Below, piece by piece: positions 37,079 through 62,500 of a stretch of 64,000 nucleotides of DNA. Position numbers and translations under genes: made by a program. The notes under the pieces were generated by a model. The model was not told the origin of the DNA, made no database searches, and worked only from the letters and a program-made list of their open reading frames with translations. The DNA is taken from contig VCJN01001836.1 in NCBI GenBank assembly GCA_006384855.1, forward strand, positions 96,893-160,892. Direction: 5' to 3'. Numbering within the stretch: position 1 is the first letter of the stretch; every line of letters starts with the position of its first letter. Source of the stretch: Tetraselmis striata (taxonomy: Eukaryota; Chlorophyta; Chlorodendrophyceae; Chlorodendrales; Chlorodendraceae).

Positions 37079-37534
37079 AAGCCGTGGAGTCTGCAATCCT
37101 CCTGGCCTGGCCAGTGATGGTGTTCGTGTAGCTGCAGTTAGGCCTCCGGGCAGCTGTTAGCTCTCCTCCGGGAGCTGAGCTCAGGCTCGTGTCATGGCAG
37201 CTCTGATCTCCTCAGGGAGAGTCACCTGTTAGGTAGCGTTTCTCCGAGAGATTCCGCATATGTAATGTATATGATGTCCCCTGCGACTCTGTGCTGCCCC
37301 TGGCAGTTGCCTCTGCAACTTTCCTTAAGTTGGCCGGCGATGCATTCGTGTCAAGAGCGGCACACCCTGTGTGACGATTCATATCTCCCGTTGTGTCGGA
37401 GCGATATTTAATTTGAAAATACTGTTATTTTCAGTTTCAGACGATTTTGAGTTCAAACTCACTGTTTGTTTCATGCAGCAGTCATCCAGGCTGCTTGCTG
37501 ACCACTATGGTGCTGTCTGTGGCGTTGGCATTTT

Positions 37535-38920
37535 GTGACAGTTTTAACGTCAGCTAATTTTGAGCTTCCTCATGAGCCGGCTATGGACGTCAATTCTCCT
37601 GTGGAATCGGCCGGTGTTATGCGTAAAGGCTGGCAATTTTGGGACAGCATCACTGACTCAGTCAGAGACAGTCAGGTCAGATATTGGGTCAGGCATGGCT
37701 ACCGTTTGAACTGGGCTGATGGTCCTGCGCCACCCAGCCATCTACCAAATCACCCGTCCGCGCTGCAGCACCCCGATTTCATTGATGGGCAGATCGCTAT
37801 GCTATTGCCGCTGGGCCATATCAGAGAGGAAGCTTTGCGCCCTGTGGTGCTGAACCCTTTGGGTGTGGTCCCCAAACCCCATGGTGGACTCAGGCTGATC
37901 TGCGATCGGCGTCATGTCAACAAACACTTGGTTTACACTCCCTTCAAGATGGAGTCGTTATCTAAACTGTCAGACCTGGTGAATCCCAGCGACATGCTGA
38001 CCAGCATGGATCTGACTCAGGGCTATTACCATGTCCGCCTCCATGATTCAGCTGCTCCTTACAGCGGGTTTGAGTGGAGAGGTAGATTCTACACCTAGCG
38101 GGTTCTATGCTTTGGGCTGTCTGATGCCCCCCGCTGCTTTTCTAAAGTCATGGGAGTTCTGGTGCGACACTGGCGCAGTAGGGGCATCAGGATGCTCTGC
38201 TACCTGGATGACTGGTTGTTTATCTCTGGCTGTGTCAGAAAGGCACATTCAACTACTCAGCAGGTGCTGGCCGATGTTGAGCGCGCTCATGTCAACATCA
38301 ACTTCAAAAAATCCAGTCTGAACCCCAGCCCCACTATCACCCACCTCGGGTTTGATCTGGACACTGTGGCCGGTACCTTCTCTGTTCCTCAGAAGCGATG
38401 GGATGCTCTTCAGCTCGACATCCAGTCCCTGCTGCATGGCCACCGCAAGCGCCACAAAGTCAAGTTCTTAGCCAGCTGTACTGGGAAATTGATTTCCATG
38501 GGGCTAGCGTTGGGCCCAGTTTCTCGTCTCTTTTGCAGAGGTCTGTATGCCAACATTGCGCAAGCAGAACGGTGGGGTCACCACGTTGCCCTCTCTGAGG
38601 AGTCCCGTGAGGAGCTACGGTTCTGGGCCCCAGTGTCTAGGCGGCAGTTTACTGGGCGCATCGTTCCTGACTTGGACAGCAAACTGTCCGTTTTTCTGGA
38701 GTGTGATGCCTCAGGCATCGGCTGGGGCGGTTTGGCCAGACCGACCGATGGCAGCTCGGACCCCGTCGCGAAAGCTCACGGCTTCTTCCTTCCGTGGGAA
38801 CGTGTTGAGTCCTCGACACACCGTGAGACTCGTGGTCTGCTCTTCGTCTTGAAGTCCCTGTCACACCTGATCGCAGCTCGACGAGTGCAGGTCCAGGTAG
38901 ATAATAAGAGTATGCTGCCA
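37535..38920 (+). CDS. Reverse transcriptase / RNase H region of the DIRS-like element (fossil)
   Basis: RT landmarks: VVPKPHGGLRLICDRRHVNK, MDLTQGYYHV, CFGLSDAPRCFSKVMG and CYLDDW. These are followed by a connection domain and the start of RNase H (VFLECDASGIGWGG; VQVDNKSM). The region stops at the left TI repeat of the inserted transposon. Typical of Ngaro/DIRS-type RT-RH. Confidence 0.85.
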
Positions 38921-38999
38921 ACAGTAATCCAACCTATTTTGCCCCGAGGCACGCGGTGCATTGTGGTTAGGTCTAAATTAGGGTTTGGGGGCAGCAGTG

Positions 39000-39240
39000 G
39001 GATTGCAAGCTTATATGAATGCCGGTTGGTTCATTTTGTGCCAAGTCGGGGAAACCAATTCCGTCCAAGCAGGGACAAATCAAAAGAGTGAAGGAAACGG
39101 GATGGTTACAAGAAGTTTGCGCCATCGGGGGCTGAAACTCTGTCCAAACTGGGACAAAAAGAAGTGCGTGGGCCGTGATGGCTACAAGTAGTTTGTGCCG
39201 TCCGGGGCTGAAACTCTGTCAAAGCCGGGACAAAACATAT
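39000..39240 (+). repeat. Three ~77-bp subterminal repeats with GTCC...GGGACA palindromes
   Basis: Copies begin about 39,020, 39,102 and 39,179. Each ends in an imperfect palindrome: CCGTCCAAGCAGGGACAAAT, CTGTCCAAACTGGGACAAAA, CTGTCAAAGCCGGGACAAAA. Matching motifs lie near the right end (TTGTCCCATTTTGGACAAAA at 51,252) and in an intron (50,528-50,597). Candidate transposase-binding sites. Confidence 0.65.
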
Positions 39241-39265
39241 GAGCGGCTAATTTTGCGGAATTGTA

Positions 39266-42200
39266 CTACATATCATCATCTTCGATCACATAATCCCCTC
39301 GGCGCTCTGCCGCCTCTTGCCTCCTCTTCTCCGCCGCTGCACGCTCTTCCCGCTCCTCTAACTCGGTCATTGGAAGGCGTAGACCCGGCCACTTCTCGAA
39401 GTCATTTGGACGCAGTCTTTGAGTCTCGTCCCATGGTTTCTCTTTGAACCATGAGGTCATCCTGGACTTCATCCCAGCGATTTGCGTCTTCTGGTTGTCA
39501 ATGAGGATCGTCTTCAAGTTCCTGTGTGTGAACGAGCAGCTCGGATGCATATGGTCCCACCACACGGAAAAGGCCGCAGCGACATGGAAAAGGCGTGGCA
39601 AACCGCACAAGGCGTTAATTTTTTTATGCTGACCCCATTAAGACACTCACCCGGGTTGCACCCCTCACGCACCGCGGTTGTCCCGGTTCCGGCTGAGACG
39701 TCGACGATTGTTGTCCCGTCTGTTGCTGCCATCTTAAGGTGCTTGGCGAAGAGAGCGATAGGCTTTTGGTACTTGTTCACCGTCTGTCTGTTCTCGTCCT
39801 TCAATTTCGAACTGTCTTTGAAGTGACCCAACATGATGGATGTAGAGAATCTGGAAAGGCACAACCGGCTTAGCGAGTAAATAAGTACAAGCCGGCTATT
39901 TTCCACGGATCAAATCTCACCTTCGGAGATCATCGAAACGGATGCTGTCAGCTATGATGCTTGGCGGGGGCTTCCTGACGTAGAGGTAGTACTCAGCGTC
40001 GTGACGCAGAGAGCTGCCCATCTTCATCCCGCAATCCTTGGCCCAAGTCAGGACGTGATAGATGAGGTCCTCAGCTTGTTTTTGAACGGCTGTGATTGCG
40101 GATCCAAGTTGCTGGTCCGAGAGGTGAATGAAGAAATGGCACCCATCGAGAGCAGTGTGGACGTCAGAAGATCCAGTCAGGATATTCAACTGCCTGCGCG
40201 GGGGAAAAATCGGGAATGAGATAAATGAAAGCATAGTCATCTACGCACCGGGGTTGTGGGGGTTGTCCTGCCTGGCGAAAGCAAACACGTCGTTGAAGTC
40301 GTCCGTACCCCACGCAGCATCCTTCGAGTCCCATGTGTGCGAACCAGCTCCGAAAAGCGCGTCGGCAATGAAGACTGTTGCCTTTCTGGCACGAACTGCC
40401 GACATGGCGTCCGCGACGATGTGTTTTGTCGCGGGAGCCTTGAAGTTCCCCTCCACAATGCAAGTCTTGCAAAGCTCCGTGTCTAACCAGATCTCCTCAT
40501 CCTTGTCGACCTTTTCGCCCTTGGGCATCACCGGAAGTGCCCCGGCATGTGTGTATTAGAAAACAGATTCGGGTTAATAGCTCACAACGAAAATTCAGAA
40601 GAGCATTTGTGGTTGCACAAGATCTTAGTTACCTTCATCGATATCCACAGCTCATTAGAAACATTCGGAGCGGAAACCGCGATAAGCTCCGGCGCACATG
40701 CCAGAAGAGCAAACTCTGTGAAGAAGGAGATGACCAAGTCCGGCATCTGATTCTTGATGCGATACGCCTCACTCCTGATGGTGGTGTTGGTGGCCGCGAT
40801 ATGCTCTCGAACCGGTAGTGGTGTGAGACAATCGGCGGATTTCATGTCCCCCCATCTGGCAGGAGGGGTCAGCAAGACCATCAACGGACCGGAGCGATGA
40901 GCACCTTTGAACAAATCCTGGAACTTTCTAGGGAAGCCTGTTGGGCCGAGGTCATCAACCTTGGCTCGGAACTTGGTGATGGCGTCAAGGCGAGCGGCCG
41001 CTTGCTCTTCCGACACATCGTCATCCACATCCATTTCGATGATGTGGTCCGAGAGATATTTCCCCCAGTTCCTGGCCGGTTCGTCCGGCGTCACCAGTTG
41101 GAGTTCCTGTCCGTGTCCCTTTGCCGTGCCAATGGCATTCATGAGCTTGATGCTTGCTCGACGCAAGAGATCGCGAAACCTCCAGGTCTCAATCATCGCG
41201 AGCCACTCCGCGTTGGTGTGCGTAACAGCCATGGGGCCATTGTCGCCGGCATGCTTAATGTCATCCACCAGCTCGTAGAGGCTCGGGGTCACACTGTGCT
41301 CGCCTTGGATGAGCAGTCCAACCACCAGGTACATCTGGCCCACAGGGAGATCCGCGCTGTCGCTCTGCTTGGCAAGAGACGGCTCGTCTAGCCAGGGCGC
41401 ATGGGGTCCAAAGCCGACATCCTTGGTCGAAAAACAAACTTCAGTACGGAGAAAGGAATCAATGATAGTATTCCATGTGATTAAGACACTGGGGTCGGTC
41501 ACAACTTACCTCCATGAGGGCGACTCGGAAGTGAGCTCTGTCTTTGCCGAAGCCGTACTTCTTGTTATCGAGGATTGCATTGATAGGCTTCCGAATTGCT
41601 TCGTAAACCTTGCTCACTTCCTTCTGGGTGAGTTGCCTGCCGCTATTGAGGCGCTTGACTCTATCGAGTTCTTGCTGGTAGTACACAAACATGTCTCCGA
41701 GTTTGGTTCTGGCTTCGTCCCATCCTCGAACCCCGAGGTCCACATGCCGGTAGGCTTCAGAAATCTGCTCAAGGGGCTCAAAAACACTGCGCAAATCATT
41801 TGTCAGAATCTAGCAGCATTAACAACACGATAAATTTTCATCATGTACGCAGCTCACCGTTATGGGCGCGAGCAGAGGTCAATCAAATTTGAGAACTCGC
41901 TGCTCTTCTCATCTTTGATGCCGATCTTCTCAAGTTCAACTTGAAGAACTTCAGACTTCTTGAACTCCTTCACTACCCTGATTTGCGGAAGTGCCCTAAA
42001 GCCGGGGCGATTTGCATCCTGTTCTGCATACCAGCTCTCGAAACATCTGCGAAGGTTTTGCAGAAACAATTGCACCGATTTCAAAACTCCGAACGATTGT
42101 ACATCGATGACAAACCGTTTCGTCCCGCTGATGACAGAACGTTTCGTCCCACTAATGACAGAACGTTTCGCCCCACTAATGACAGACCGTTTCGTCCCAC

Positions 42201-45200
42201 TGATGACAGACCGTTTCGTCCCACTGATGACAAACCGTTTCGTCCCGCTAATGACAGAACGTTTCGTCCCACTGATGACAGACCGTTTCGTCCCACTGAT
42301 GACAAACCGTTTCGTCCCGCTAATGACATAACGTTTCGTCCCACTGATGATGACAGAACGTTTCGTCCCGCTGATGACAGAACGTTTCGTCCCACTGTCA
42401 CATATTTTTAACCCGCTAACGACAGAACGACTTTTGTCACACTTTACGCCTATTTGTTGCCACGGTCAGCTTAATAACAATTTGGGAGAATGGGCCACTC
42501 ACCAGGAGTTTGTGCATCGACGTGTCTCCCACGACGGTGTGACCCGCCTCGTTGAGCTTCATAGACATGTAGCGGCAGACTTCCGGCGAGAGGCCGATGT
42601 ACATCTTAGCCGACGTGAGGTGGATGCCTTTGTTGGCTTTGTAGATTTCCGGGTAGTTTTTTTTCACCATGCGCTTCGCCTCCCGTCTGTGGCTGCCGTC
42701 GATGTTGGCTTGAAGCGCGCCGTAGGCGCTAAGAAACTCGATGATGACGTCGATCTCTGGCTTGTAGGAACTTGAATCCGCCAACCTCGGGTTCTCCCCG
42801 CCTTCGTGTGCTGCGACTAGCTCCTTGAAGTTGGCCATGGTCTGAGCGAGGGGCTCGTACTCTTTGCGGAACGTTAAGCCTATATTCTTGGCAACCACTG
42901 GAAAGGACACTGAGAAATTCTCGGCGGACAAGGAAGGATTCCTCTGAATAACAAATGCAAGAAATGGATGTCTGTAAGTTGCATTGTGTATTGATTTATA
43001 TTTGTCTACACATATTTGATCCGGTACAACAGGTCGCGATAGGCTTTTACCTTGTAGCTTTGCGCCACCATATTGCAGTCTTGCAGCTTTGGGGAACGGA
43101 ATTCAAAATTCCGGCGGCGGAGCGACGAACTTATCGGATATGAAGCTGAAAATGTGAGGCAGCCCCGTATCCTTGTCGACGACGAGGTTGACTATGTCGG
43201 CGTATAACGTGTTGATGTCGCCACCGTGAGATGTCTTCACCTCTGGATCAGCAATCTCGACTCTGAGGTGGCCGTAAGAGATCGAGTCGACGGCACCGGT
43301 GTTGTGGAAGCCATTCAAGGCCGGCGGGACGGCCAACGTGTTGACGTATGGAAGCGCGTTCTTAAAATCCTTGTCAATGTTGGCCAAGTCATTGATGTCA
43401 ATCTGACCAGACGCGAAACCTGTCAGCGCCTGCGCCAGCACATTGCGCTCGACCAAAGTCCATGCGTAGTAAGACTGGAACCGCGGTTGGAAGCAGAGTG
43501 GCGGCTGGATCGCGTGGAGTAGCAACCTCTCAAAGCTGACATCGATCCTGAACTCCTTGTGCACTGTCAAGCGATAAGGTTCAAGACAGATCTGCGGTAA
43601 CAAGCATAAGAATATTAATACTTATTGAAACACGACATTGACACGAATTCAGACATCATATAAGCTTTACTCACCCCGTAGTTTCCGGCCGAGTCCAGCT
43701 CGACGTCCTTGATCTTTCCGATACACGCGAGAAGTGGCCCCTTCGGATCATCGAAAAAGTCCTTGCCAGTCAGCAGGCTCGCCTTGTGCAATTCGATGTA
43801 CAAATAGATATGTACCTCAGCACTTGCGTTCTTGAACCAGTGGATAGTCCAGCTCCTTGAGGTAAAGTCGCTGTAGGAGTCATGTTCTTGGGACCCGTCC
43901 CTCTCGTCAAAGAAGTCGTCGTAAGAGGCGACCGTCATCAGCTTTGTCTTCCTCTCGGGTCCGGGAGTGCCGGTGATGTCGAGAGCTTGCTTACGCTTCT
44001 CTGCCGCCCGTTGCCTCTGTTCTTCCTCTGTGCCGAAGACCTCTTCATCCGTGCACATACTGAGGAATTCAGGAACCCTTCTCGGAGCCTCGGCAATAGG
44101 GGCTCGAGAACAAGAGGCTCCAGAACCGGACGCTTGCCCGGTAGTCGGCGCTGGAGTCTCGAGCTCGGCCTCTGGCTCCGGGTCAAGCCGAGTGGGCTCG
44201 GGCTCCGGCTCGGGCTCCATCTGAGTTGGCTCAGTTTCATGCTCATGTCGAGGCTCTGGCTCGGGCTCATTGGGCTCTGTTTCAGGCTCCGGCTCGGGCT
44301 CCGGCTCCGGCTCAGTGTGCTCTATTTCAGGCTCAGGCTATGTTTCCGGTACTTGAGATGGGCCTTTAGACAAAGAAGAGTCTTGATTCGGGGAACCTGT
44401 AAAGAATGAGTAGAGAGTACTCAACACACCTGCGGTGGGCGTCACGATTAACTACTGAACGGTATCGTCATACATACACCATCAAAGCCAAGCGTGATTT
44501 TTCTTACCTGGGGATCCCGATTTACCAGCTGCTTCCGACGCGGTTGCCTGCGCCAATTTACATGTTGGAACGTCAGATAACTCATTGACGAGAAAGTAAT
44601 CGATGTAAGGGTGAGAAGGCAGGGAGTGATACTTTCAGTCACAATTACCTGGAGTCACAATCGTCTCTGAAACCTTTTCTTTTCCCTTGGATTCCTTTGA
44701 AGCTTGAGTCGCTACTGGCTCATTTGCGCGTCCTTTCGAACCTGTCAACACACATGATTTCAAACAATGTAAATATGACACAGTGCACTCACAAAGGCAG
44801 GGATTGATACTTTCAGTCACAATTACCTGGAGTCACAATCGTTTCTGAAACTTTTTCTTTTCCCTTTGATTCCTTTGAAGCTTTAGTCGCTACTGGCTCA
44901 TGTGCGCGTCCTTTCGAACCTGTCAACACACATGATTTCAAACAATGTCAATATGACACAGTGCACTCACAAAAATCATATGATTGGAGAGGCAAGGACC
45001 TGATTGATAGTAAGCTTGCATGAGCTTTTCGTAATCGATTAGCCTTCGCGCTGTCTGCATTTGAGCATCTGAGAGGACTTGGCCGCTCTTGATTCGGGCC
45101 CTCAAAAGCAAGGCGGCCGATCTTTCTCCTTGCGAGTGCGTGCCGTAAGCCGGCACCCTACCTCCTAAAAGGCTCGGTTTCCAGGGGTTACCTGATGCCT

Positions 45201-46695
45201 CAGCGCCGGCTCTAGCTGCAGAAGCTGAGGCTGCACGGCTCTTCTTCGCAGCCGGCTGCTCGGGCACAGAAGATGACGCCTTGTGTTTTCTCCCGACTAG
45301 CGCTCCGAGCGCATCGAATTCTTTTGCTTTCTCGGTAGGTTTTGATGTCCGCTTGGACCTTCGACCTATAAATATCATATCCTGTCAGACCGTTTCGTCC
45401 CGCTGATGACAGACCGTTTCGTCCCACTGATGACAAACCGTTTCGTCCCACTGATGACAGACCGTTTCGTCCTACTGATGACAGACCGTTTCGTCCCACT
45501 GATGACAGACCGTTTCGTCCCACTGATGACAGACCGTTTCGTCCCACTGATGACAAACCGTTTCGTCCCACTGATGACAAACCGTTTCGTCCCACTGATG
45601 ACAAACCGTTTCGTCCCACTGATGACAGAACGTTTCGTCCCACTGATGACAGAACGGTTCGTCCCACTAATGACAAACCGTTTCGTCCCACTGATGACAT
45701 ACCGATTCGTCCTACTGATGACAGACCGTTTCGTCCCGCTGATGACAGAACGTTTCGTCCCACTAATGACAAACCGTTTCGTCCCACTGATGACAGACCG
45801 TTTCGTCCCGCTGATGACAAACCGTTTCGTCCCACTGATGACAAACCGTTTCGTCCCACTGATGACAAACCGTTTCGTCCCGCTTAAGACAAACCGTTTC
45901 GTCCCACTGATGACAAACCGTTTTGTCCCACTGATGACAGACCGTTTCGTCCCACTGATGACAAACCGTTTCGTCCCACTGATGACAAACCGTTTCGTGC
46001 GTCCCACTGATGACAGAACGTTTCGTCCCGCTGATGACAAACCGTTTCGTCCCGCTGATGACAAACCGTTTCGTCCTACTGATGACATACCGTTTTGTCC
46101 CACTGATGATAGACCGTTTCGTCCCACTGATGACAAAACTATTTTCAATACATTATGTACTGCGGTTTAATAATGTAATGTCTTTAAGTACTGCGCTTCA
46201 CACTAATATTAAACCACTCCTTACGGCGGAGTACAGGCAGAGGTTCCCCCTGGCCGCTCTTCACCCCCACCCCCTCCCACCACCAATTAGCATCCTTACT
46301 GACTTGCCGCAGCTGCCTCGACGGGACGTAATACTACCCTGCAGGACCCTGATGCCGCTCGTCTCGTTTGGGTTTCTATTCCCACTCGTCTGCCTACACC
46401 TCGAGCGGTCCTAGATTACACCGCTTCTACAGGGAACCCTAACCGAACTCGCTAGATCTGGCCGCATCACGCGTCGAGCAGGCAGGCGGCTACTGTACGC
46501 TGCCACTCGTCTGCCTACACCTCGAGTGGTCCTAGATTACACCGCTTCTACAGGGAACCCTAACCGAACTCGCTAGATCTGGCCGTATCACGCGTCGAGC
46601 AGGCAGGCAGCTACTGTACGCGCGCGCAACTCACCTGGGGTGGCGTCGTCCTTGTCTTCCTTGTCCTTGGCAGGCTCGTTCTTCTTCGGCGCCAT
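39266..46695 (-). CDS. Many-exon gene ending in a beta-class DNA amino-methyltransferase domain
   Basis: Probable exons: 46,635-46,695 (MAPKKNEPAKDKEDK), 45,000-45,365, 44,827-44,919, 44,649-44,741, one or more unresolved near 44,500-44,590, 43,675-44,396, 43,103-43,591, 42,503-42,943, a piece near 41,860-42,060, 41,510-41,809, 40,633-41,421, 40,245-40,519, 39,921-40,193, about 39,651-39,850, and 39,266-39,521. The last four carry the methyltransferase: ATVFIADALFGAGSHTWD (motif IV position, where D/N/S-P-P-Y/F/W is usual), YHVLTWAKDC and AEYYLYVRK (central strands), QKPIALFAKHL, then motif I TIVDVSAGTGTTAV. Motif IV before motif I marks beta-class m6A/m4C enzymes. Upstream exons are unrecognised. 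In-frame stops fall at 44,338-44,340 (TAG), 43,103-43,105 (TGA) and 41,860-41,862 (TAA), so the gene is decaying, is two genes, or my exon model is incomplete. Confidence 0.6.
42104..42410 (+). repeat. 24-bp tandem repeat array A (~12 copies)
   Basis: Unit contains GTTTCGTCCCACTGATGACA, with A/G variation (CCCACTGATG / CCCGCTAATG). It lies between coding blocks of the minus-strand gene, that is in an intron. All plus-strand frames stay open because the period is eight codons. Confidence 0.95.
44649..44919 (-). repeat. Duplicated 93-nt phase-1 cassette exons
   Basis: Exons 44,827-44,919 and 44,649-44,741 plus flanking introns are near copies with a 178-bp period. Both are phase 1 at each side and encode the same 31-residue Lys/Glu/Ser-rich segment (ASKESKGKEKVSETIVTP). 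They can be skipped or multiplied without changing frame. Confidence 0.8.
45386..46137 (+). repeat. 24-bp tandem repeat array B (~31 copies)
   Basis: Same unit and orientation as array A. Lies in the first intron of the minus-strand gene (45,366-46,634), beginning about 20 bp before the acceptor of exon 2. A few units have small indels. Confidence 0.95.
46383..46625. repeat. 121-bp direct duplication in intron 1 of the minus-strand gene
   Basis: Copies start at 46,383 and 46,504 (CACTCGTCTGCCTACACCTC, AGGGAACCCTAACCGAACTC). Only a few differences, so recent. Confidence 0.9.
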
Positions 46696-47234
46696 TCTGG
46701 CGGTAGGTAGGTTGACGCGGTAGATGAGCGGGTTTCTTGGTGGGAAGCGGTGAGGGAGAGGTGGAAATGACGTGGTTTCTGTCTGCCGCCGCTCTGACCC
46801 CTGCTGGACCAACGGCGCGCGTGCGCACACTATAGTGTACCTCGTCGTCGTCATCAGGTTCATGTATTTTGCACCGCGACGAATATACAAGGCTAACTAC
46901 TGCGACTATATATTACTATTACTGGAAGATAAAATATTCCCTACTCGAGAGTCATAACGGTACGAGAGTACAGTGGCGTGGCAATAATATTCCTTCATGG
47001 GATGATATATTCCTTGGATTGGATTCGGGTGTACTTACTAGTATAGAACTATTTCCGACATACGAAAGAAACACGAAATAATACGGTATTTGAGTCCTCA
47101 ATTATTTTGACCCGTAGCTGGATATTATGCCCCCCGGTCAACGGCCCGTCCGAGAACGGTCATCGGCCGTCACTCTTCCTCACCACAGATCACAGTCCTT
47201 CACCCCCCCCCCCCCCCCACTCGCCCCGCGCTGC
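46696..47234. promoter_or_regulatory. Divergent promoter region of the transposon's two genes
   Basis: 540 bp between the two head-to-head start codons (46,695 minus; 47,235 plus). AT-rich patch at 46,880-47,080 (TATATATTACTATTACTGG; ATAATATTCC) and a poly(C) run at 47,205-47,218 just before the plus-strand ATG. No 24-bp repeat here. Exact promoters not identified. Confidence 0.45.
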
Positions 47235-50200
47235 ATGGCGGCGGTCGAAAGCATGGCCTCTTCTCCAGGATCCGGCGCGTCGGACACTACACTTACATTA
47301 CCGACGTGTTCGTGCCGCAGCGGGTACTCGTGTGATTGCGACGCGCGTGCGAGTGATCGTAAGGAGCCTGAGAAAAGGAAGTACACGTGGGGCAAGGGCT
47401 CCGATGAGGTCGCCGAAAGCGATAATGGCAAGGTCTCGTCTCTGATCAGCAAGCGCACCTCTCGCGATTGTATCCGCCTCATGCTCGCCAAGGAGGCTAG
47501 CGAGCAGTCGCCATGCTGTTCGCGCAAGTGCGTGCACAAGCTATACACACAGTGCGGAGAGGCCCTCGTTGATGCCGTGTTGGACCGTGCGTTGACCGTA
47601 TACTCTGGCAATCAGAACCGCTCCTTTGACCGGCTCGCTCAGGTTCTCAGGGGTGGCTACGAGTCGGCATCCGACAAGTTCGATTACATGTTTGATCACG
47701 GTGGCTACTTGCGATCTTTCGATCATCGCGGCCCCATCTACACGTGTGGGCGTGCGTGGGAGGTCTTGCATCAGGTCTCGAAACACAGACGTCTCGTGAT
47801 CCAGCGGTCGGTGGTGGATAACGAACCCACGTACATCAGGCAGCGCAAGCAATACGAGAGCAGACAAACCGGACCGAGGGAGCATGTGCGCATGTTTCTC
47901 GAGCACTTCTTCTCGGATGACCTCGGTCACGTCGAGATCATGCCTTTTCATGACGGAAACAGCGAGACCTTCAAGAAGCACCTACCTCCCTGGATGACCA
48001 AGATTTGCGTCTACTACTACTACAAGTCGTGGGCCGAGGACGACAACGCCATTCTCCGTGGTGAGGCCCATTTTGTCCCACTGATGACATACCGTTTCGT
48101 CCCGCTGACGACAGACCGTTTCGTCCCGCTGATGACAAACCGTTTCGTCCCACTGAGGACAAACCGTTTTGTCCCGCTGATGACAGACCGTTTTGTCCCG
48201 CTGATGACAGACCGTTTCGTCCCGCTAATTACATACCGTTTTTGTCCCGCTGATGACAAACCGTTTCGTCCCACTGATGACAGACCGTTTCGTCCCGCTG
48301 ATGACAAACCGTTTCGTCCCACTGATGACAAACCGTTTCGTCCCACTGATGACAAACCGTTTCGTCCCACTGATGACAGACCGTTTCGTCCCGCTGATGA
48401 CAAACCGTTTCGTCCCGCTGATGACAAATCGTTTTGTCCCACTGATGACAAACCGTTTCGTCCCACTGATGACATGCCGTTTTGTCCCACTGATGACAAA
48501 CCGTTTTGTCCCGCTGATGACAAACCGTTTCGTCCCGCTATCGCCAGAACGTTTAATCCCACCGACGCCGGACCGATTTCGTCCCACTGATGACAGAACG
48601 TTTCGCACCGCTCATGGCATACCGTTTCGTCCCACCGACCACAAAAGTATTTGTCCCACATAATTAGCCGATATCGTCCCACTGCAGAGAGAACGTCTTG
48701 TCCCACTGCTGAGAGACGGTTTTGTCCCACTACTGACATACCGTTTCGTCACACTGATGACAGATTGTTTCGCCATGCTGATTACAGAATTATTCACCCA
48801 CTACCGATATAATTATTTCGACCCACTTTAGACCGAACTTTTCTGTCTCGCATTATGAGACCTTATTTGTATACCGACCTATCATGCCCCTGCCCCTTTG
48901 TAGATTTGGCTACCGAGAGCGAAGTGAAGCTCGCATCGTTCGACACTTTCCGCCGGACTTGGAAGGAAGACTTCCCGGATGTCACCACGCCGAAGGTGAA
49001 GCGATTCAGCCACTGTCCCATATGCGCGGCGGGCAAAGCACTCAGAGACCAAGCTCGCGAGATTTGCACAAAGGACATGACGCCAGAGGAACGTCAAGTG
49101 CACCGTCAACATCATCAGCTGGTGAGGCGTCAGGTCAGAGCTGAGCAGAAGGTACACCTCGAGAGAGTGCGCCAGGAACGAAGGGATCTGAACAACGCCG
49201 TCTTCCAGTCGCGCCTTGGCCATGGAAACTTCTTCTTCTTCGAAATTGATAGCATGGACTCCGCGAAGACCCTGCTGCCTCACTGGGTTCGCATCCCCAA
49301 GACTGTGAAGCCCGACATGCTCCTCAAGTACCACCTCACCTGTGTGAAGTACGACGGATACCGCCCGGACGACATCTACTACTACACCAACACCATCCCC
49401 CACGATTCGTCCACGACGTGCACTCTGATATGGATCACGATCATGAAGGTGAGCTCGTTAGCCTCCCGATAGGTTCGCCGTGGTTGTCCGGTAGCCATGG
49501 ACTGATGAAATCTTGTCTGCGATGCAGGAAATTCAACACCGTGGTAGAAAGATTCCGTACATCAGAATCCAGATGGACAACACCGTCAGGGAGAACAAGA
49601 ATAGGAACGTGGCGGCCCTCTGCAATTGGCTTGTGTCTATCGGCATCTGCGACGTCATTCATTTGGTCTTCTTGCCTGTCGGGCACACTCACGAACGGGT
49701 TGACCAGATCTTCAGCCGCATCAGTCTTGCGCTATCTCGCAGCTCCGCCTACACAATCGAGGCCTTTCTTGACTTGGTGGCGAAGGCATTCTCGCCCACT
49801 CCGGAGATTGCTGAGCTCTCATTCTCCCTCGACTTCTCTGAGTGGTTAAGGCCCCATTTCCAAGACCACATTCAGGACATCAGTAAGCCGCACAAATTCG
49901 AGTTCACCCGTGACGACGCCGCCGCGTCTGGCGGCTCGTTGCGCACCGCCTTGTGGTCCAACACACCGCTTTCTGAGCCCGTGCAGATCTTGAAGAGCGC
50001 GCCAACTGGGACGCCCGAGATTCGTGCGGGCCGGCCCCTTTTGTACGCTCTCTGCGACAAAAAGAAGCCCGACGCGGTGAAGGTCCAGAGGTACTTGGAT
50101 GATTTCAAGAAGGTCAGGTCGTACATCACGGACCTGGCGGTCCAGTGGCACTTCTCCCCAGTCGAGCGCGAGAGCTGGAAGAATCTGCTCGACGACTTGG

Positions 50201-51175
50201 ATGAGATGCAAACTGCTCCTTCGGCAGCTTTCTCCGGGTTCTGGCCGCAACGGAAAGAGGAAGTTGACGACTTCTTGCGCGAGCACGGGCAGACCGCGCC
50301 TGCTGAGGCACGTCACACGATGGCTACCAACGCAGACCTCAACAATGCCGAAGCCGCTCGCGTTGAAGCCGAGGTTCGTGCTCAAGTGCTTCAAGATGAC
50401 AGCGCCTTCCGGGGAGTTCACGCCGGCGCCAAGGAGAGGCTTCATGACAACACATCGCCCAGCGATGCAAAGGGCTCGAACCTCGTTGTCATCGACGTCT
50501 CCGATGTGAGTCCCATTGTTTGTCATTTTTGTCCTTTACGGGACAAAACAATTTGGTTCTTCTACCTTGCTTGTTATTTTGTCCCAACTGGGACAAAAAT
50601 GGCGTGGCGTCTCGCTCGGGACTAACATAGCTCGCGGTCTTGGTCATCGTTAGGTGCATGAGGAAGACAAGTGTCCTGAAACTCTTGGTGATTGGGAGTC
50701 GAGATTCGTCATCGGGCTTGTGAAGTCGCGCGAGACTACCGAAGACACGTTGACCGTGGCCGTATACGAGCCCTTCCATGCCGATGCAAAGGGCAAACCC
50801 CTCATGCCCCTATGGTTGTACGCGCAGACAAAAGGAGGGAAGAAGCCAGTTGACACAAGCTGGGAGAAGTGCCTGACGCTTCCTTGGAAGCTTGTTGAAG
50901 CCGTCCCCCTATCGTACGCGAAGGCCATCCACGACGCGTCGGGAAGTCGAGAGGTGTTCAACGAGGACGGCACCATGGTCAGAAAGAAGTGGTACGGTAA
51001 AAGCGTCCAAGTCGTGAAGACATATGCGCAAACTGGGTGGCAAATCAGCCAGCCACGAAACAACTGCGTCCACGTCATGTCAACCACCCCAGCGCAACGC
51101 AAACCCGGCGGAGTCGTCAAGTTTAACGCAGCCACGAAGAAGGACTTGCTTGAGTTGGGGATGCTCAACGAATAA
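47235..51175 (+). CDS. DUF7869-like transposase-like protein, four exons, 956 aa, intact
   Basis: Exons 47,235-48,060, 48,904-49,448, 49,528-50,505 and 50,654-51,175 (stop TAA). All introns are GT-AG and every phase agrees, giving 957 codons including the stop. Start chosen at MAAVESMASS, after the poly(C) run; an ATG at 47,127 would read through that run. Features: Cys-rich CSCRSGYSCDC (residues ~25-35) and CCSRKC (~94-99), HCPIC (~312-316), then a probable DDE-like catalytic fold: FFFFEIDSMDSAKT (Asp ~391/394), IQMDNTVRENKN (Asp ~474) and VGHTHERVDQIFSRI (Glu ~513, Asp ~516). The last two blocks are the signature I associate with DUF7869 proteins, common in repeat-rich eukaryote genomes. 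Presumed to move this element. Confidence 0.75.
48063..48790 (+). repeat. 24-bp tandem repeat array C (~30 copies) inside intron 1 of the transposase gene
   Basis: Same unit as arrays A and B. It fills the 843-bp intron 48,061-48,903, starting 2 bp or so after the donor region (G|GTGAGG) and decaying toward the acceptor (CCCCTTTGTAG). Frames read straight into it from exon 1 are misleading. Confidence 0.95.
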
Positions 51176-51448
51176 ACTATCAGCAACGTCTTGTGGCTAG
51201 CTAGCCGCTGGATGTAATAATCATAATAAATATTGATTTCATTGCCTCATCTTGTCCCATTTTGGACAAAATGCTCCAAAACCAACATTGGATATGCGTC
51301 GCGGCTGGCCTTCATGCTGTTGAATGCTGCACTGCACCCAAGGTCTACAAACCCAAGCTACATCACCAGTGAGTCTTAAGTACTGACAGTAAACCCGGGA
51401 ACTAGGGTATAAACAAACCCTACGGTGCAAAATAGGTTAAATTACTGT

Positions 51449-53262
51449 TTACCGGTTTGCCGACACGGCTCTCGCTCGAGCATGTCGCTGAACTCTGTAG
51501 CTCAACAAGTCTACCTCCTGTGTCTCTCCTTGGGAGCGTCACTCTCTATTGTGTGGGGGTCCCGTGATGAGAATCCGGACTCCGACGAGATTTCTAAGAT
51601 GCTCGACAAAGATGACTGGCAACTGCTGCCCAAGTTTTTCCGGCGCCTCAGCTTGAAGTGGGGCATTCACCATATCGACCGGTTCGCATCCGATCTGAAC
51701 CATCAAGTACCGAGATTCTACTCACGTTTCTGGTGCCCTGGATGCGAGGGCGTCGATGCTTTCAGTCACTTCTGGGCGCGGTAGTGTGAACAATTGGATT
51801 AATGCTCCATTTAGCTGCATTGGCAGGGTTATGCGCAAGCTGAAAGCTGACCACGCGGTCGCTACAGTTATAGTGCCCCTATGGCCTAGTCAGTCCTGGT
51901 GGACTTTGGTAGCTCCTGACGGTAGACACCTGGCTGACTGTGTGGTCGATTGGGTCATGCTCGACAGCGGCGAGGAGCTATTCAGTTCTGGCGAGGGCAG
52001 TGGTAACAGCCGCCCGAGCTGCTCCAGGAACTGGCGCGTCCTTGCTCTGCGTATCGACTGCCTGCCTGGCGCGCGGCGCACCCCAGCGCACCACCGCTGC
52101 CTCCACCCGGAGTGGTGTGACAGTCATGGCTGATGAGTCAGCCATCACCCGTGGGTGTACCTCCGCTTGGCCGAGTAACCCGGTGGCTCCCGCCGATGTC
52201 GCCGGCACATCTTTGTTTAATGCTTTGATCTCTTCAGCCCCACAGCAGTGGGCTGCTGGCTCTAATCGTGGCTATGCCTACATATGGAATCGCTTCGTGA
52301 TGTTCTGCGAGGCTCGGACACCCCCCATGTGCCCAATGCCAGCAGCCCCGATTGTGGTGGCTATGTTTTTTCAAGCTCGGTTGGACGCCCGTTCTACCAA
52401 CAGCTATTCAGTGATCAGGTCTGCGTCTGCGGCTATATCGCAGATGCACCGGCTGAATATGCACCCCAGTCCTACCTTGTCCCCGTGTTGCACCTCTGTC
52501 CGAGCGGCAGCCAAGCGCACCCTGGGGCTCGCCGTGAAGAACGCCAAGGAACCCTTCGCATGGTCTGACATCGCGAAGCTAGTCTGCCTTCGCTGCAAGG
52601 ACGACTCAATCATGTATTTGATCCTGGATAGTGGCAGTCGCCGCAGCCGTCAGTTTTGCCGGCTTCTGCCGCTACAACGACCTCCGGGTCCTGCGGTGGG
52701 AGGACGTCTCCTTCCTCCCGACTTATCTAGAATTCCGCTTCGTGAAGCGCAAGAACGACCAGCACCGCCAGTGTGGCAAGGTGCGGGTCGCTAAGATGCA
52801 CGGCGCCGTGGTGTGCGTCTATGGACTCTTGCGCCGGTACCAAGGCGCTGGGCAACACCCACCCTGCCAGTGTTCCCGGGGTTCAGCGGCACAGTCCTAC
52901 GGCACAAGGGCGAGCTAGGGATAGTTCCTTCCTCCTCCCCTATTGAGTACCCCACGTTCAGACGCTACCTTGCGCGGTGGTTGGGTCCGCTACTCACTCC
53001 TGCGATGACTGAGTCCGCTTTCCTGACCCGGTTCGGCACGCAATCCAGCCGAAGTGGCGGCGCTTCCGCCGCCGCTAACGCAGACATCCAGTTCGCAACA
53101 TGGGGCTTGCACGGTGGCTGGAAGTCAACCTCTGCTCAGCTCCGCTATATGGGGCTGGACGAGGAGCACGTTCTGTCCGTGTCGCGTGCGATCCTGTCAC
53201 TTGCCGAAGAGGACGAGCTGGACGATGGCGACGGTGACGTACGGTTCACCATCCGACAATGA
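51449..53262 (+). CDS. RNase H end and tyrosine recombinase of the DIRS-like element (fossil)
   Basis: After the transposon the frame resumes with SLNSVAQQVYLLCLSLGASL and WGIHHIDRFAS (RNase H / connection). A tyrosine recombinase domain covers about 52,126-53,262: N-terminal helices, RYNDLRVLRWEDV (first Arg block) and SSRSGGASAAANAD ... GGWKSTSAQLRYMG (second Arg, Trp and the Tyr nucleophile). YR-based integration explains the lack of target duplications for this order. Confidence 0.8.
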
Positions 53263-54127: not shown

Positions 54128-55236
54128 CTGAATTGTCCCGCCGTATGGTCGAAAATGAACTTTATTTTCGGGATGCGGCCTAAACGGTTGAGCGGCGCTC
54201 CCCATATACGCGCGCATTCGATTCTCTCCATCGGCACATTTCCTCGGAGTGAGGCGCGCACGCCGCGCGCGAACCGGCGTCTTATGTGCTGATCCTGTCA
54301 GCTCCCCGATCGCTGCTCATTGAGCACTCCCTCCCTTCCTGTCATGTCGGCGCCTTAACATCACACTCGGCCTAGTGCCGCTATTGCAGCGGCCCGGGAT
54401 GTTGTGATGGGGAGGGAGCTCTGCGTTCGGTGGAAGGGGACGCGACCGAGCTGGCAGCGGAATTGGCGCTGGGAGGCGCCCGTCGGTTACCCACCCGTGG
54501 CGCCCAGTCATGGGTTGAACCCCCCCACTTCCGCTCTTTGCTGCGAGACCTCTTCGAAGCTCCTTTCCTGTCGGCGCCTCCACCTCACATTCGGGCTAGT
54601 GCCGCTATTGGAGTGTCCCGGAACTATGTGCTGGGGAGAGCGTCCCTACTGCGTGGAGCGGCGGCCTGGTGGGTGGCGATGCCTGGTCGGTGGCCGCCTT
54701 GGCGGTTCCCGCCTCTGGCCCGTAGGTGGATTTCCTTCTGGATTTCTGTATATGGAATTCTTTGATGTTGCAGGTAGCACATTTAAATACCTATACATTT
54801 AAACACCTATACAGGGATGTAGTTTTCATGGCCTTAGTAATGTACAGTACCAGGCCCCGGATTTGTTCCTGGCCTTTTTGTAATCCACACCAATACCAGC
54901 AGGGGAAGGAAACGGGTACCAGGTACCAGGTACAGGTTTGAATTACAAAGCGCAAGCACCAAGAGGTACGGACGGGTATGGATTAAAGATCGCTATTTAT
55001 TTATTTTTATATTAGGGCGCGACCCTATGTTTCAAAATAAATACGGACTCCTCATCTTGCGATTACGAGGTGCGCCACGGCGCATAACTCATTTCCACGC
55101 CCCTGCCAGGATCCTGTCTCGCGCCACTTCTCCGTCGCGTGTCACACGCGCCAGCACCCTTCCAAACTTAGCGTCGCCCGTCACACACGCCAGCACCCTT
55201 CCAATCTTGTTATCCTCTGGCTATCCGCATTGAACT
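54128..55236. repeat. Intergenic; diverged ~225-bp tandem duplication and a 48-bp duplication
   Basis: 54,340-54,560 and 54,567-54,770 share CCTGTCGGCGCCT-like starts, CTAGTGCCGCTATTG, GGGAGAGC and a poor-quality remainder. At 55,130-55,210 a 48-bp unit (GCGTGTCACACGCGCCAGCA, CCCTTCCAA) is repeated just upstream of the kinase. No gene seen. Confidence 0.5.
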
Positions 55237-56193
55237 ATGGTGGGTTCCTTTGGACGGTGGCCATGGGAGCTCCGCCGTCGCTGCGTATCTACGAGTAACG
55301 GTACCACCCCAGCACGGGCCGAAGGCGGCGCCGCAGCAAATGACGTGCTAGCCGCCCAGCGTCGTGCGGCTAGCTGCAGCACCGTGGAGAGAAATCGCAG
55401 ATGCCTGCACGAGTGCTACTATCTAGAGGAGATAGTCGGCTGCGGCGCCTTCGCAGTTGTTCAGCGAGCAGTCTGCAAGGAGACCGGGACTGCCTGGGCC
55501 GTCAAGAAGTTTAACGCGGGCACCAGCCGCGACGCGATACTAAAAGAAATACACATTCTGAGCCAACTAGACCATGCCAACGTGCTTCGCCCCAGGGAGT
55601 ACTTCGACGACGACGCGGGTGTTGCCTTGATCACCGAGCTCCTGGTCGGCGAACATCTTCTCGAGTGCGTGGCAGACCGCGGGAGCTACGCGGAGGACGA
55701 CTGCCGTCAGATAGCAAGGAACGTTCTGTCGGCGCTCGCACACTGCCACGCAAAGGGCGTGGTTCACCGCGACCTCAAGTTAGAGAACTTGGTCCTGTCG
55801 TGCAACCTGGACCCCTGCTCTATCAAAATTGTCGACTTCGGGCTGTCCGGACAGCTATTGGAGAGTGAGCCCTTCCTGACCGAGAGCTGCGGCACGCCTG
55901 CGTGCACAGCACCGGAGGTGCTGCAGCGGAACGCGTCATACGGTTCGAGCCCAGACGTGTGGTCCGTCGGCTGCCTTATATTCACGCTCCTCAGTGGCGC
56001 CCCGCCCTTTCAAGCGCGCGTCCTAAAGAGTCTCGTGCGAGACATCAGACAAGGCGCCTTTAGCATGCAAGACCCTGCCTGGGAACTCGTCAGCGACAGC
56101 GCCAAGGAATTCGTGAAGCTGCTGCTGCAGGTGGAACCAAAAAAGCGGCCCACGGCCCTCGCTGCGCTGGAGCACTCCTGGCTTCAGGAGTGA
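55237..56193 (+). CDS. Serine/threonine protein kinase, CAMK-like, single exon, 318 aa
   Basis: Complete kinase domain, residues ~62-316: glycine loop VGCGAFAVV (68-75), catalytic Lys in WAVKKF (Lys90), alpha-C Glu104, HRD motif VVHRDLKLEN (Asp179, Asn184), VDFGLSG (Asp200), TAPE (225-227), DVWSVGCLIFTLLSGAPPF (subdomain IX) and KRPTALAALEHSWL (Arg of XI). The HRDLKLEN and GxPPF style match CAMK/CDPK kinases. No EF hands or autoinhibitory segment follow, so it is not a full CDPK. The ~60-residue N-terminus is Arg/Ala/Ser-rich and could be a targeting peptide. Intronless, all catalytic residues present, ends TGA. Nothing indicates its substrate. Confidence 0.92.
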   Translation: MVGSFGRWPWELRRRCVSTSNGTTPARAEGGAAANDVLAAQRRAASCSTVERNRRCLHECYYLEEIVGCGAFAVVQRAVCKETGTAWAVKKFNAGTSRDAILKEIHILSQLDHANVLRPREYFDDDAGVALITELLVGEHLLECVADRGSYAEDDCRQIARNVLSALAHCHAKGVVHRDLKLENLVLSCNLDPCSIKIVDFGLSGQLLESEPFLTESCGTPACTAPEVLQRNASYGSSPDVWSVGCLIFTLLSGAPPFQARVLKSLVRDIRQGAFSMQDPAWELVSDSAKEFVKLLLQVEPKKRPTALAALEHSWLQE

Positions 56194-59536: not shown

Positions 59537-62500
59537 CACCCCTCCACATAAGTCCGGGTTTTGCATTTTCGATCGCAAAGCGCATGCATGGGCGAGGATC
59601 ACGCCGGCTGCATGTGCATACATGCTAACTACAGTGGGAATAGTTCGGGCGAACGCCTATTGTGCGCTTTATACCCACCCGCGCGACAACACGACCATTT
59701 GTGGGCACCCTTTCAAAAACGCGAAATCATTGCATGGTGCGTTGGCGCCAGAAAGTTGTGGGTTGCGCCAACCGTCCAAACCTATGGAAATAGCGGCACT
59801 CGTCGCACCAAACTCGGTGGATACGGCCCTTGGCATAAGTTGCACACACCGTGCGTGTAGGCCACTGAAAGCATGTCGCTATAGGCACGACGTGACACCC
59901 CAACGTCAAGTTGGCCACTGTGGGGAGCAGTTTTGGGGTGAAAATGCTGCTGTTTCTGTGGCGAACGCACGTAGGAGAGGCGCTCGATGGCCCCCTTGGC
60001 GTAGGGCAATGCTCTACCATGGGGGCGCGTGGTGGAATGCCAGTTGCACCCTTTCGTGGGCGGGGTGGCGCGGTAGGGGCGTGGATTTTGATTAATATGA
60101 AATTCCTTGAAAACTGCTGTGGAAAATGGCATTTTGGCTGGTAGATGTGTGTATCGCTAGGAGGTGGCACATGCCAAGTGTTGGTGGTCCGTGGTCATCC
60201 ACATACATAACGCTCTCACGCAACTGAGTATGGGGCTTAGACACGCACTTGGCGCAAAGCCACGCGCCCGATATGGGTGGGCACATGAGGCAGTGAGGGG
60301 CAACTTGGATGATCATCTTTGGGGATTTTTTCCAGAGACCCAAAAAATCGATTTTGTGGTTATGGAAGAGTGTTCCCGACGCAGAATTGAACGAGGAATC
60401 GCGTGATATTTTTAAAAAGTTTTTCTGAGCAAACCCTGAGAAGTTATAGCGTTTTGAAGCCAAGGGGGTGTTGCTGCGCGTGGCCGACACTGATGCCATG
60501 CCAGTATCGCAACGCGACATGCACTGGCCGCCGCCCACACGGCTGCACCCCAACCAAATGCACCCGAGCCCCTCGCCAATGTGTTTCCTCACGCGTTCAT
60601 GGCCATCCCGCCGTTTGGTTGTCTATTCACGCGCGTCGGCGTGTGCGTGATACCGACCCCGGTTTTGGTGCAGTTGCAGGCGACGCCCATCCACGCACCA
60701 GGTGCAGCGTGATTCCCTAGTCAAAGGTCATTAAGTTTCGGTTTGAGCCACTCGTCATGCAGGTTTTATAAAGCCCTCTGAGATTCCAGGGTTTCATCTC
60801 ATATACCCTACGTTCAGGTACCCTAGACTTGTGAAGTCTTGAGACTGCCGAAAAGGGACCCCAAACTTATGTGGAGGGGTGTGTTGGCCATGTGTCATTC
60901 GGCCATATACGGCCGACGCGGCATGTTTGAATCACCCCAATGCTCCTACTGGCTGCATATGCCCATGATGCATCCACATGCGAGCCACGGGCTCGAAAGG
61001 GCTCACTGTCCCAAGACGCCTTATTGCGACCTCGTCGAGCGCGCTTGGTGCGGCGCACACCCCTCCACATAAGTCCGGGTTTTGCATTTTCGATCGCAAA
61101 GCGCATGCATGGGCGAGGATCACGCCGGCTGCATGTGCATACATGCTAACTACAGTGGGAATAGTTCGGGCGAACGCCTATTGTGCGCTTTATACCCACC
61201 CGCGCGACAACACGACCATTTGTGGGCACCCTTTCAAAAACGCGAAATCATTGCATGGTGCGTTGGCGCCAGAAAGTTGTGGGTTGCGCCAACCGTCCAA
61301 ACCTATGGAAATAGCGGCACTCGTCGCACCAAACTCGGTGGATACGGCCCTTGGCATAAGTTGCACACACCGTGCGTGTAGGCCACTGAAAGCATGTCGC
61401 TATAGGCACGACGTGACACCCCAACGTCAAGTTGGCCACTGTGGGGGAGCAGTTTTGGGGTGAAAATGCTGCTGTTTCTGTGGCGAACGCACGTAGGAGA
61501 GGCGCTCGATGGCCCCCTTGGCGTAGGGCAATGCTCTACCATGGGGGCGCGTGGTGGAATGCCAGTTGCACCCTTTCGTGGGCGGGGTGGCGCGGTAGGG
61601 GCGTGGATTTTGATTAATATGAAATTCCTTGAAAACTGCTGTGGAAAATGGCATTTTGGCTGGTAGATGTGTGTATCGCTAGGAGGTGGCACATGCCAAG
61701 TGTTGGTGGTCCGTGGTCATCCACATACATAACGCTCTCACGCAACTGAGTATGGGGCTTAGACACGCACTTGGCGCAAAGCCACGCGCCCGATATGGGT
61801 GGGCACATGAGGCAGTGAGGGGCAACTTGGATGATCATCTTTGGGGATTTTTTCCAGAGACCCAAAAAATCGATTTTGTGGTTATGGAAGAGTGTTCCCG
61901 ACGCAGAATTGAACGAGGAATCGCGTGATATTTTTAAAAAGTTTTTCTGAGCAAACCCTGAGAAGTTATAGCGTTTTGAAGCCAAGGGGGTGTTGCTGCG
62001 CGTGGCCGACACTGATGCCATGCCAGTATCGCAACGCGACATGCACTGGCCGCCGCCCACACGGCTGCACCCCAACCAAATGCACCCGAGCCCCTCGCCA
62101 ATGTGTTTCCTCACGCGTTCATGGCCATCCCGCCGTTTGGTTGTCTATTCACGCGCGTCGGCGTGTGCGTGATACCGACCCCGGTTTTGGTGCAGTTGCA
62201 GGCGACGCCCATCCACGCACCAGGTGCAGCGTGATTCCCTAGTCAAAGGTCATTAAGTTTCGGTTTGAGCCACTCGTCATGCAGGTTTTATAAAGCCCTC
62301 TGAGATTCCAGGGTTTCATCTCATATACCCTACGTTCAGGTACCCTAGACTTGTGAAGTCTTGAGACTGCCGAAAAGGGACCCCAAACTTATGTGGAGGG
62401 GTGTGTTGGCCATGTGTCATTCGGCCATATACGGCCGACGCGGCATGTTTGAATCACCCCAATGCTCCTACTGGCTGCATATGCCCATGATGCATCCACA

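Follow-up and report, generated by a model that had tools for sequence, protein, structure and literature searches.

The 64,000-nucleotide stretch of DNA analysed here (the window) contains, from position 38920 to position 51449, one copy of a high-copy DNA transposon of 12.5 kb, which carries two divergent genes, one encoding a protein of the Pfam family DUF7869 and the other a methyltransferase-like protein. The element is multicopy and bounded by terminal inverted repeats (TIRs), target site duplications (TSDs) of 4 bp surround it, its two divergent genes are kept together, and the DUF7869 gene is constrained. These observations are best explained, with a probability of about 0.7, by a TIR DNA transposon which is autonomous and has recently been active in a green alga, and in which the DUF7869 protein would be the transposase and the methyltransferase-derived protein an accessory factor or a regulator; this confidence takes account of the position of one motif of the latter protein (motif IV), which is our own assignment, and of a homologue, P0052, which carries a DPPARWG stretch upstream of it. 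The contig of the window (C1481) belongs to an assembly of 224 Mb, the proteins of which match those of Tetraselmis striata, a chlorophyte; the DUF7869 protein of the window displays 100% identity over the searched region with a prediction from this species (Tetstr1), and all of its matches (48/48) are Tetstr1 proteins.

The ends of the element consist of two inverted arms:

38920-38946, plus strand: left terminal inverted repeat, a 27-nt arm 89% complementary to the right arm and recurring as a genome-wide motif
51423-51449, minus strand: right terminal inverted repeat, a 27-nt arm 89% complementary to the left arm

The near-perfect inverted ends reported in the initial annotation of this DNA are thereby recovered, except that each end lies one base outside the interval 38921..51448 proposed at that time, A-ACAGTAAT being the best reading of the terminus. 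A 22-nt end motif, ACAGTAATNNAACCTATTTTGC, has two matches in the window, as compared to a mean of 0.00 over 100 shuffles, and 633 matches with at most two mismatches in the genome (325 forward and 308 reverse), as compared to 0 for the reversed control, so that the TIR pair is by no means confined to the window. As in other class II elements, the TIRs are common to many dispersed copies. The left 350 bp yielded 403 first-look candidates genome-wide, and the 40 which were scored, window included, show 98-100% identity; for the right end, 40 of 397 candidates were scored and, besides the window, 30 of them reach 100% over 256 bp and nine reach 99%. Since both ends are near-identical among the scored copies, they point to a recent burst of the element.

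Among the listed part of the 633 end-motif places, there are 12 pairs of facing ends with a spacing of 12.0-12.8 kb. Ten of these pairs were fetched whole, so that the full copies are selected by size, and for ten further pairs, 7.3-28 kb apart and including the two left over from the twelve, only the ends were retrieved. Each of the ten whole copies (12.0-12.8 kb) possesses a TIR at its start and at its end, and both gene halves are collinear with the window in all ten, with 87-99% identity per aligned stretch outside the tandem arrays described below; homologues of the two genes are therefore found together within TIRs in 10/10 whole copies. Facing ends are separated by no more than 7.3-7.4 kb in C70:47942-55283 (with an exact TSD) and C200:44626-51991 (with two mismatches), which are probably internal-deletion derivatives.

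With the terminus read as A-ACAGTAAT, an exact TSD of 4 bp flanks 13 of the 21 copies compared (window counted), against 1/420 in a between-copy control, and three copies (C488, C455 and the window) exhibit a TSD with one mismatch; exact duplications of 5-10 bp were seen in none of these 21 copies. The duplicated sequences include GCCA, CGAC, ACGC and GCAG, and none of the 13 exact TSDs consists of TTAA. In the window, the two copies of the duplication, to which no strand applies, were located from the TSD analysis and the empty sites:

38916-38919: left TSD copy TGCC (original target TACC)
51450-51453: right TSD copy TACC

They mark the point where the transposon splits a DIRS-like host element (window 37502-38919 and 51450-53262), an interruption already suspected from the initial inspection and now corroborated by reverse transcriptase (RT) and RNase H domains on the left and by the empty site in all three uninterrupted DIRS relatives inspected, which reads ATGC-TACC-GGTTTGCC in two of them and ATGC-TACC-AGTTTGCC in the third. 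A duplication of fixed length (4 bp) is thus combined with a demonstrable empty site (3/3 relatives), as in class II elements. Since the relatives read TACC at the site, TACC was the target in the window, the left duplicate having changed to TGCC afterwards. The additional claim that recognizable DIRS domains continue on both sides holds for the left part, and the DNA immediately right of the insertion does continue in the uninterrupted relatives, but the four right-hand open reading frames (ORFs) scanned (51413-53262) gave no Pfam match at E<=0.01. The left flank of the DIRS-like element is itself repeated, with 39 other matching places among the 40 scored out of 87 candidates.

Owing to these duplications, the element might belong to a named superfamily, Sola or another group with 4-bp duplications, the DUF7869 protein being its transposase under another name, which we regard as a possible but rather doubtful assignment. 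According to PMC3627910, Sola2 elements similarly possess 4-bp TSDs, short TIRs and large transposases, one of them of 888 aa, and can carry accessory genes such as Fanzor1. Their TSDs, however, are described as AT-rich (AWWT, ATAT, AAAT, ATTT), so that those of T. striata quoted above fit in length but not in composition, and the element is set apart from Sola2 by this description (PMC3627910). Kolobok elements share with it 4-bp duplications, 5'-RR termini and, in several lineages, accessory genes, but their duplications are TTAA-specific in the superfamily description, though of 3-5 bp in KolobokP (PMC9587614), whereas those of T. striata have no fixed sequence. The term DUF7869 was not found in the literature searched, and the superfamily list in PMC4455052 names no DUF7869 group.

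The attribution of transposase activity to the DUF7869 protein, on which the preferred explanation depends, relies upon a gene of four exons located in the right part of the element:

47235-48060, plus strand: candidate transposase exon 1, with an ORF that in the window copy can also be read from an upstream ATG at 47127
48904-49448, plus strand: candidate transposase exon 2, with the EIDSMD block and the first candidate catalytic Asp
49528-50505, plus strand: candidate transposase exon 3, with the QMDN and HTHERVD blocks
50654-51177, plus strand: candidate transposase exon 4, with the stop codon

The product of these exons, 956 aa from position 47235 or 992 aa from the upstream ATG at 47127, is open throughout in the window copy, in agreement with the intact four-exon gene initially described, and matches the Pfam family DUF7869 (PF25273) with E=1.2e-43 and 149.4 bits against a cut-off of 26, which passes the curated threshold; no other Pfam model matches the protein up to E=10. 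Read from 47127, exon 1 contains stops in nine of the ten other copies; read from 47235, it is open in 7/11 copies (window included), and the later start is taken as the probable one because exon 1 is open in more copies from there. Three candidate acidic residues, D385, D468 and E507 (P0007 numbering), occur in the EIDSMD, QMDN and HTHERVD blocks, respectively, separated by 82 and 38 residues. The three blocks are also found in a 37%-identical family of the T. striata genome, the gene models of which lose part of the last spacing, and the QMDN and HTHERVD blocks recur in P0108, a JGI metagenome protein. Variants shared by at least two of the 11 copies amount to 20 synonymous and 7 non-synonymous changes in this gene (pN/pS 0.10), as compared to 54 and 70 for singleton variants (0.37), a difference indicating that the gene was under purifying selection during the spread of the element and has been decaying since.

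The second gene is located on the opposite strand, in the left part of the element. Its minus-strand METHYLTRANSFERASE-like gene model was built by a simple dynamic programme, and most of the exons are backed by annotated homologues:

39266-46695, minus strand: methyltransferase-like gene, approximately 10 exons, ORF start MAPKKNEPAKDKEDKD at 46695 (approximate model, from homologue mapping and profile matches)
40249-40546, minus strand: exon with the presumed motif IV position, IADALFG, assigned by position and resemblance, outside any profile match
39673-39850, minus strand: exon with the S-adenosylmethionine (SAM)-binding motif I, VDVSAGTGTTA (VDVTAGTGTTA in homologues)
39269-39583, minus strand: last exon, the acceptor AG of which (39584-39585) is lost in the window copy and kept in 10/10 others

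The similarity to beta-class methyltransferases appears in four libraries. The cut-off of the Pfam model PF01555 (N6_N4_Mtase), 26.7 bits, is reached neither by the window copy (21.3 bits) nor by four of the seven homologues scanned (23.0-26.2 bits, best E 8.9e-6), and the other three homologues gave no match to this model; similarity was also found in PHROGs (PHROG 67, 4.8e-7), PADLOC (a type II methyltransferase, 2.6e-7, the best E over all libraries) and NCBIfam (CcrM, 1.4e-3). The strongest matches cover residues ~760-877 of P0050 and end with motif I, several of them reaching motif I alone. In accordance with the beta class, the SAM-binding motif I occurs in the C-terminal half, VDV(S/T)AGTGTTA being located inside the matched stretches. 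The usual catalytic motif IV of such enzymes reads (D/N/S)PP(Y/F/W). In the present protein it was placed by eye, and presumably lies, at IADALFG (residues 718-724 of P0050), where the Asp and the Phe are kept and both prolines are gone in the 36 proteins and 20 loci inspected. The corresponding exon is present in 36 of 42 homologues, 33 of which read DALF, two DALL and one lacks the motif, the remaining six giving no exon match; DALF is also found in 20/20 genomic loci, retrieved with a query which itself contains DALF. Such an altered segment may abolish catalysis. In the window copy, the last splice acceptor reads AT instead of the AG found in 10/10 other whole copies, and the second gene is consequently damaged in this particular copy, the others keeping that acceptor. 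The initial label of a divergent, multi-exon gene for a beta-class DNA methyltransferase is thus half supported, since the gene structure and the SAM-binding half are recognizable while the presumed catalytic segment appears changed to DALF and the last acceptor is lost.

The association of the two genes extends beyond the copies fetched whole. Among the 42 annotated methyltransferase-like representatives, 15 have a gene number at most two away from that of one of 52 DUF7869 representatives, against 0.25 expected from random numbers over an assumed 45,000 genes with the numbering following the genome order (13 proteins of a second DUF7869 family and P0108 left out). By coordinates, at least 74 of the 150 listed places of the methyltransferase exon are accompanied by a divergently oriented DUF7869 place on the opposite strand, at a distance of 3-14 kb (median 9.2 kb), and at least 77 have a DUF7869 place within 14 kb in any arrangement, four of these in another arrangement; these counts are lower bounds, from the best 150 of 338 methyltransferase and the best 150 of 548 DUF7869 candidates. 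One gene model, P0091 (TSEL_005106), fuses DUF7869 with a methyltransferase-like C-terminus, perhaps as the result of an internal deletion.

The second DUF7869 family, 37% identical to the first (L050-L058 on C2184, C2618 and C586), gave 73 matches from 53 scored of 1371 candidates. Two of its copies share a unit of ~11.8-12.9 kb, delimited by the points where their similarity ends, and the single copy scanned contains arrays of 25 and 28 bp. In the copy on C2184, the single one searched, no methyltransferase homologue was found (best E 0.098), no matching TIR was seen in the 400-bp ends compared, and only one of the 13 proteins of this family lies within five gene numbers of a methyltransferase-like protein. 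The pairing as a rule for all DUF7869 elements was therefore rejected.

Besides the two genes, the element contains tandem arrays inside introns and short sites close to its ends, to which no strand is assigned:

42106-42397: 24-bp tandem array, ~12 units, in an intron of the methyltransferase-like gene
45389-46137: 24-bp tandem array, ~31 units, in an upstream intron of the methyltransferase-like gene
48071-48788: 24-bp tandem array, ~23-30 units, in candidate transposase intron 1
39140-39236: left subterminal GGGACAAAA sites, at ~39152 and ~39228
50527-50600: two palindromic sites TTTTGTCC..GGGACAAAA in candidate transposase intron 3
51252-51272: right subterminal palindromic site TTGTCCCATTTTGGACAAAAT

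The arrays occupy the same three intron positions in 11/11 copies, always in one orientation, with a variable number of units, and none occurs in the short flanks of the 11 copies or in the rest of the window. The idea of a general genomic satellite was dropped for this reason; a 28-nt array word has 6428 matches genome-wide, which were not placed systematically inside elements. The array core, TTTTGTCCC, is found again in TTTTGTCC/GGACAAAA sites, at most 0.31 kb from the left end and 0.93 kb from the right end, and outside the arrays seven core motifs occur in the whole element, against 0.36 expected and a maximum of three in 500 simulated sequences. The array core and the subterminal sites are accordingly putative binding sites for one of the two proteins.

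Several observations weigh against the preferred explanation. With respect to the TSDs, 8/21 copies lack an exact duplication, five of them (C200, C58, C1441, C226 and C436) showing two to four mismatches. With respect to the DUF7869 protein, exons 2-4 are interrupted by a stop or a frameshift in six of the ten other copies, and a text search recovered the D, D and E blocks in 44, 43 and 44, respectively, of 66 DUF7869 proteins, those without the blocks being taken for partial gene models, which were not checked one by one. AlphaFold2 models built from 22 rows each reached a mean pLDDT of 32.9 for P0007 and 34.5 for P0050, too low to show an RNase H fold, and PDB sequence searches gave no relevant match; the order of strands and helices over residues ~379-521 of the low-confidence transposase model looks RNase H-like and was not used as evidence. 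The DDE-like blocks noticed at first sight hence stand as candidate D, D and E residues in order with a DDE-like spacing, the predicted RNase H structure suggested as a check having failed, and the DDE-type assignment rests on conserved residues and spacing. Relatives of the proteins were found in T. striata only, plus the JGI metagenome protein, in searches one of which scored only the best 7990 candidates by common words; viral contigs (both alignments and a DUF7869 DNA pattern) and genome contigs (transposase alignment) gave no matches. With respect to the methyltransferase-like protein, no profile match spans the segment expected to hold motif IV, and the homologue P0052 reads DPPARWG ~130 residues upstream of the DALF segment, two others reading TPPARWG, in a stretch near 40.8 kb which is left out of several gene models. 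Finally, pN/pS of shared variants in the second gene is 0.36 in the N-terminal part (9 synonymous, 11 non-synonymous), 0.51 in the middle (17, 30) and 0.71 in the methyltransferase part (9, 24), and dN/dS ranges from 0.49 to 0.82 in seven comparisons of the divergent locus L063 with the window and with six of the other 19 loci; for L063 and the window alone, it is 0.33 in the motif I exon and 0.66-0.77 in the other three. Owing to these values, a conserved role of the methyltransferase-like protein is weakly supported, the gene being much less constrained than the transposase gene.

Three other explanations have to be considered in the light of these data. That another protein of the element or a host factor mobilises it, rather than the DUF7869 protein, seems very improbable: DUF7869 is indeed a Pfam family without assigned function and the structure model did not establish its fold, but its gene is by far the more constrained of the two, the D, D and E blocks occur in order with a DDE-like spacing and recur in a divergent family, and the same domain is carried by a second repeated family of the genome. 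The methyltransferase-like gene might also be a passenger that the element captured and that is hardly selected or not at all, which we regard as possible but rather doubtful. This explanation would account for the dN/dS values and for the contrast in pN/pS between the methyltransferase part (0.71) and the transposase (0.10), for the splice acceptor lost in the window copy and for the second DUF7869 family, devoid of a methyltransferase homologue in the single copy tested. It agrees less readily with the presence of the gene in 10/10 whole copies, with a motif IV exon free of stops in 139 of the best-scoring 150 of 338 candidate places (a choice biased to intact places), with the dN/dS of 0.33 in the motif I exon, obtained in a single comparison between a divergent copy and the window, and with a nearly invariant DALF.

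According to the third explanation, which appears unlikely, the product of the second gene is an active methyltransferase (adenine-N6 or cytosine-N4) whose substrate is the DNA of the element itself, as imagined in the initial annotation to be a means of self-regulation. In its favour are the matches of the SAM-binding half to the beta class in four libraries, the conserved motif I with its exon free of stops in 146 of the best-scoring 150 of 408 candidate places (likewise biased to intact ones), the Asp and Phe kept in a presumed motif IV assigned outside any profile match, and the DPPARWG and TPPARWG stretches upstream; moreover, transposon-encoded methyltransferases are on record (PMC3627910). 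None of the 36 proteins and 20 loci inspected has either motif proline at the presumed position, which argues against it, as do the scores below the PF01555 cut-off in the window copy and in 4/7 homologues and the lack of any match in 3/7. Given the change in the presumed catalytic segment and the weak constraint on the gene, self-methylation, though possible, is not favoured.

Under the preferred explanation, the DUF7869 transposase would recognise the AACAGTAATNNAACCTATTTTGC ends together with the subterminal TTTTGTCCC/GGGACAAAA sites, cut the element out and insert it with a 4-bp stagger at targets without fixed sequence, in a cut-and-paste process carried out by a DDE-type enzyme. The second, divergent gene would give rise to a methyltransferase-derived protein with a SAM-binding end kept and a presumed catalytic segment changed to DALF, acting most likely as a DNA-binding accessory factor or regulator. 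Since the intronic 24-bp arrays and the subterminal sites share their sequence, they are plausible common targets of this protein.

The combination of a transposase with a DNA-modification gene is known from the KDZ (Kyakuja-Dileera-Zisupton) transposons with TET/JBP genes, in which both the transposase family and the enzyme are different. Mariner-2_PGv and Mariner-1_OLpv of algal giant viruses are TIR DNA transposons with a methyltransferase gene beside the transposase gene, which differ by their TA duplications, a Mariner transposase and a Methyltransf_26 or C5 methylase plus an endonuclease (PMC3627910); the T. striata element combines a 4-bp TSD with DUF7869 and a beta-class similarity, with no endonuclease in the Pfam scan of its two proteins. 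Methyltransferases have likewise been acquired by DIRS, LINE and Gypsy retrotransposons, including Dam-like enzymes in DIRS, but these elements carry a reverse transcriptase and, unlike the T. striata gene, the Dnmt3 domains of Gypsy show Ka/Ks < 0.2 with conserved key residues (PMC5890265). The novelty initially claimed must be restricted in scope, methyltransferases in DNA transposons generally being already in print (PMC3627910), and agrees with the literature searches for what concerns DUF7869: no published transposon carrying it was found, most subscription papers, Repbase and Dfam lying outside the scope of these searches. The DUF7869 pairing was not found in print within these searches, and the element may represent a new superfamily.

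The rest of the window contains other features. Five minus-strand ORFs (8253-8783, 9774-10304, 60092-60622, 61614-62144 and 62826-63641), near-identical by eye over most of their length and grouped in blocks near both window ends, form a repeated unit. Two near-identical ORFs of 181 aa (12127-12672 and 13561-14106), 1.4 kb apart, constitute a tandem repeat. By eye, a minus-strand ORF with DEAD-box helicase-like motifs (12-1445) is probably a host gene, a plus-strand ORF of 319 aa (55234-56193) shows protein-kinase motifs, and minus-strand ORFs at 23439-25239 resemble another DIRS-like reverse transcriptase and recombinase.

If the preferred explanation is true, DUF7869, at present without assigned function in Pfam, would be recognised as a transposase family, and the known architectures would be extended by a two-gene one, that of a high-copy DNA transposon accompanied by a methyltransferase-like protein whose catalytic motif is apparently changed. 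A wider extension, which we consider unlikely as a whole, is that DUF7869 defines an undescribed eukaryotic superfamily of DNA transposons with 4-bp duplications, one branch of which, in Tetraselmis, would have converted a methyltransferase of bacterial type into a SAM-binding partner for DNA recognition, altered in its catalysis, which reads tandem arrays in the introns of the element to control the expression of the transposase or the pairing of the ends. As of 2013, the role of transposon methyltransferases in transposition was described as largely unknown (PMC3627910). With the present element, the role of transposon-borne methyltransferases would become testable, and the recent burst suggests that the transposon may be assayable in an alga.

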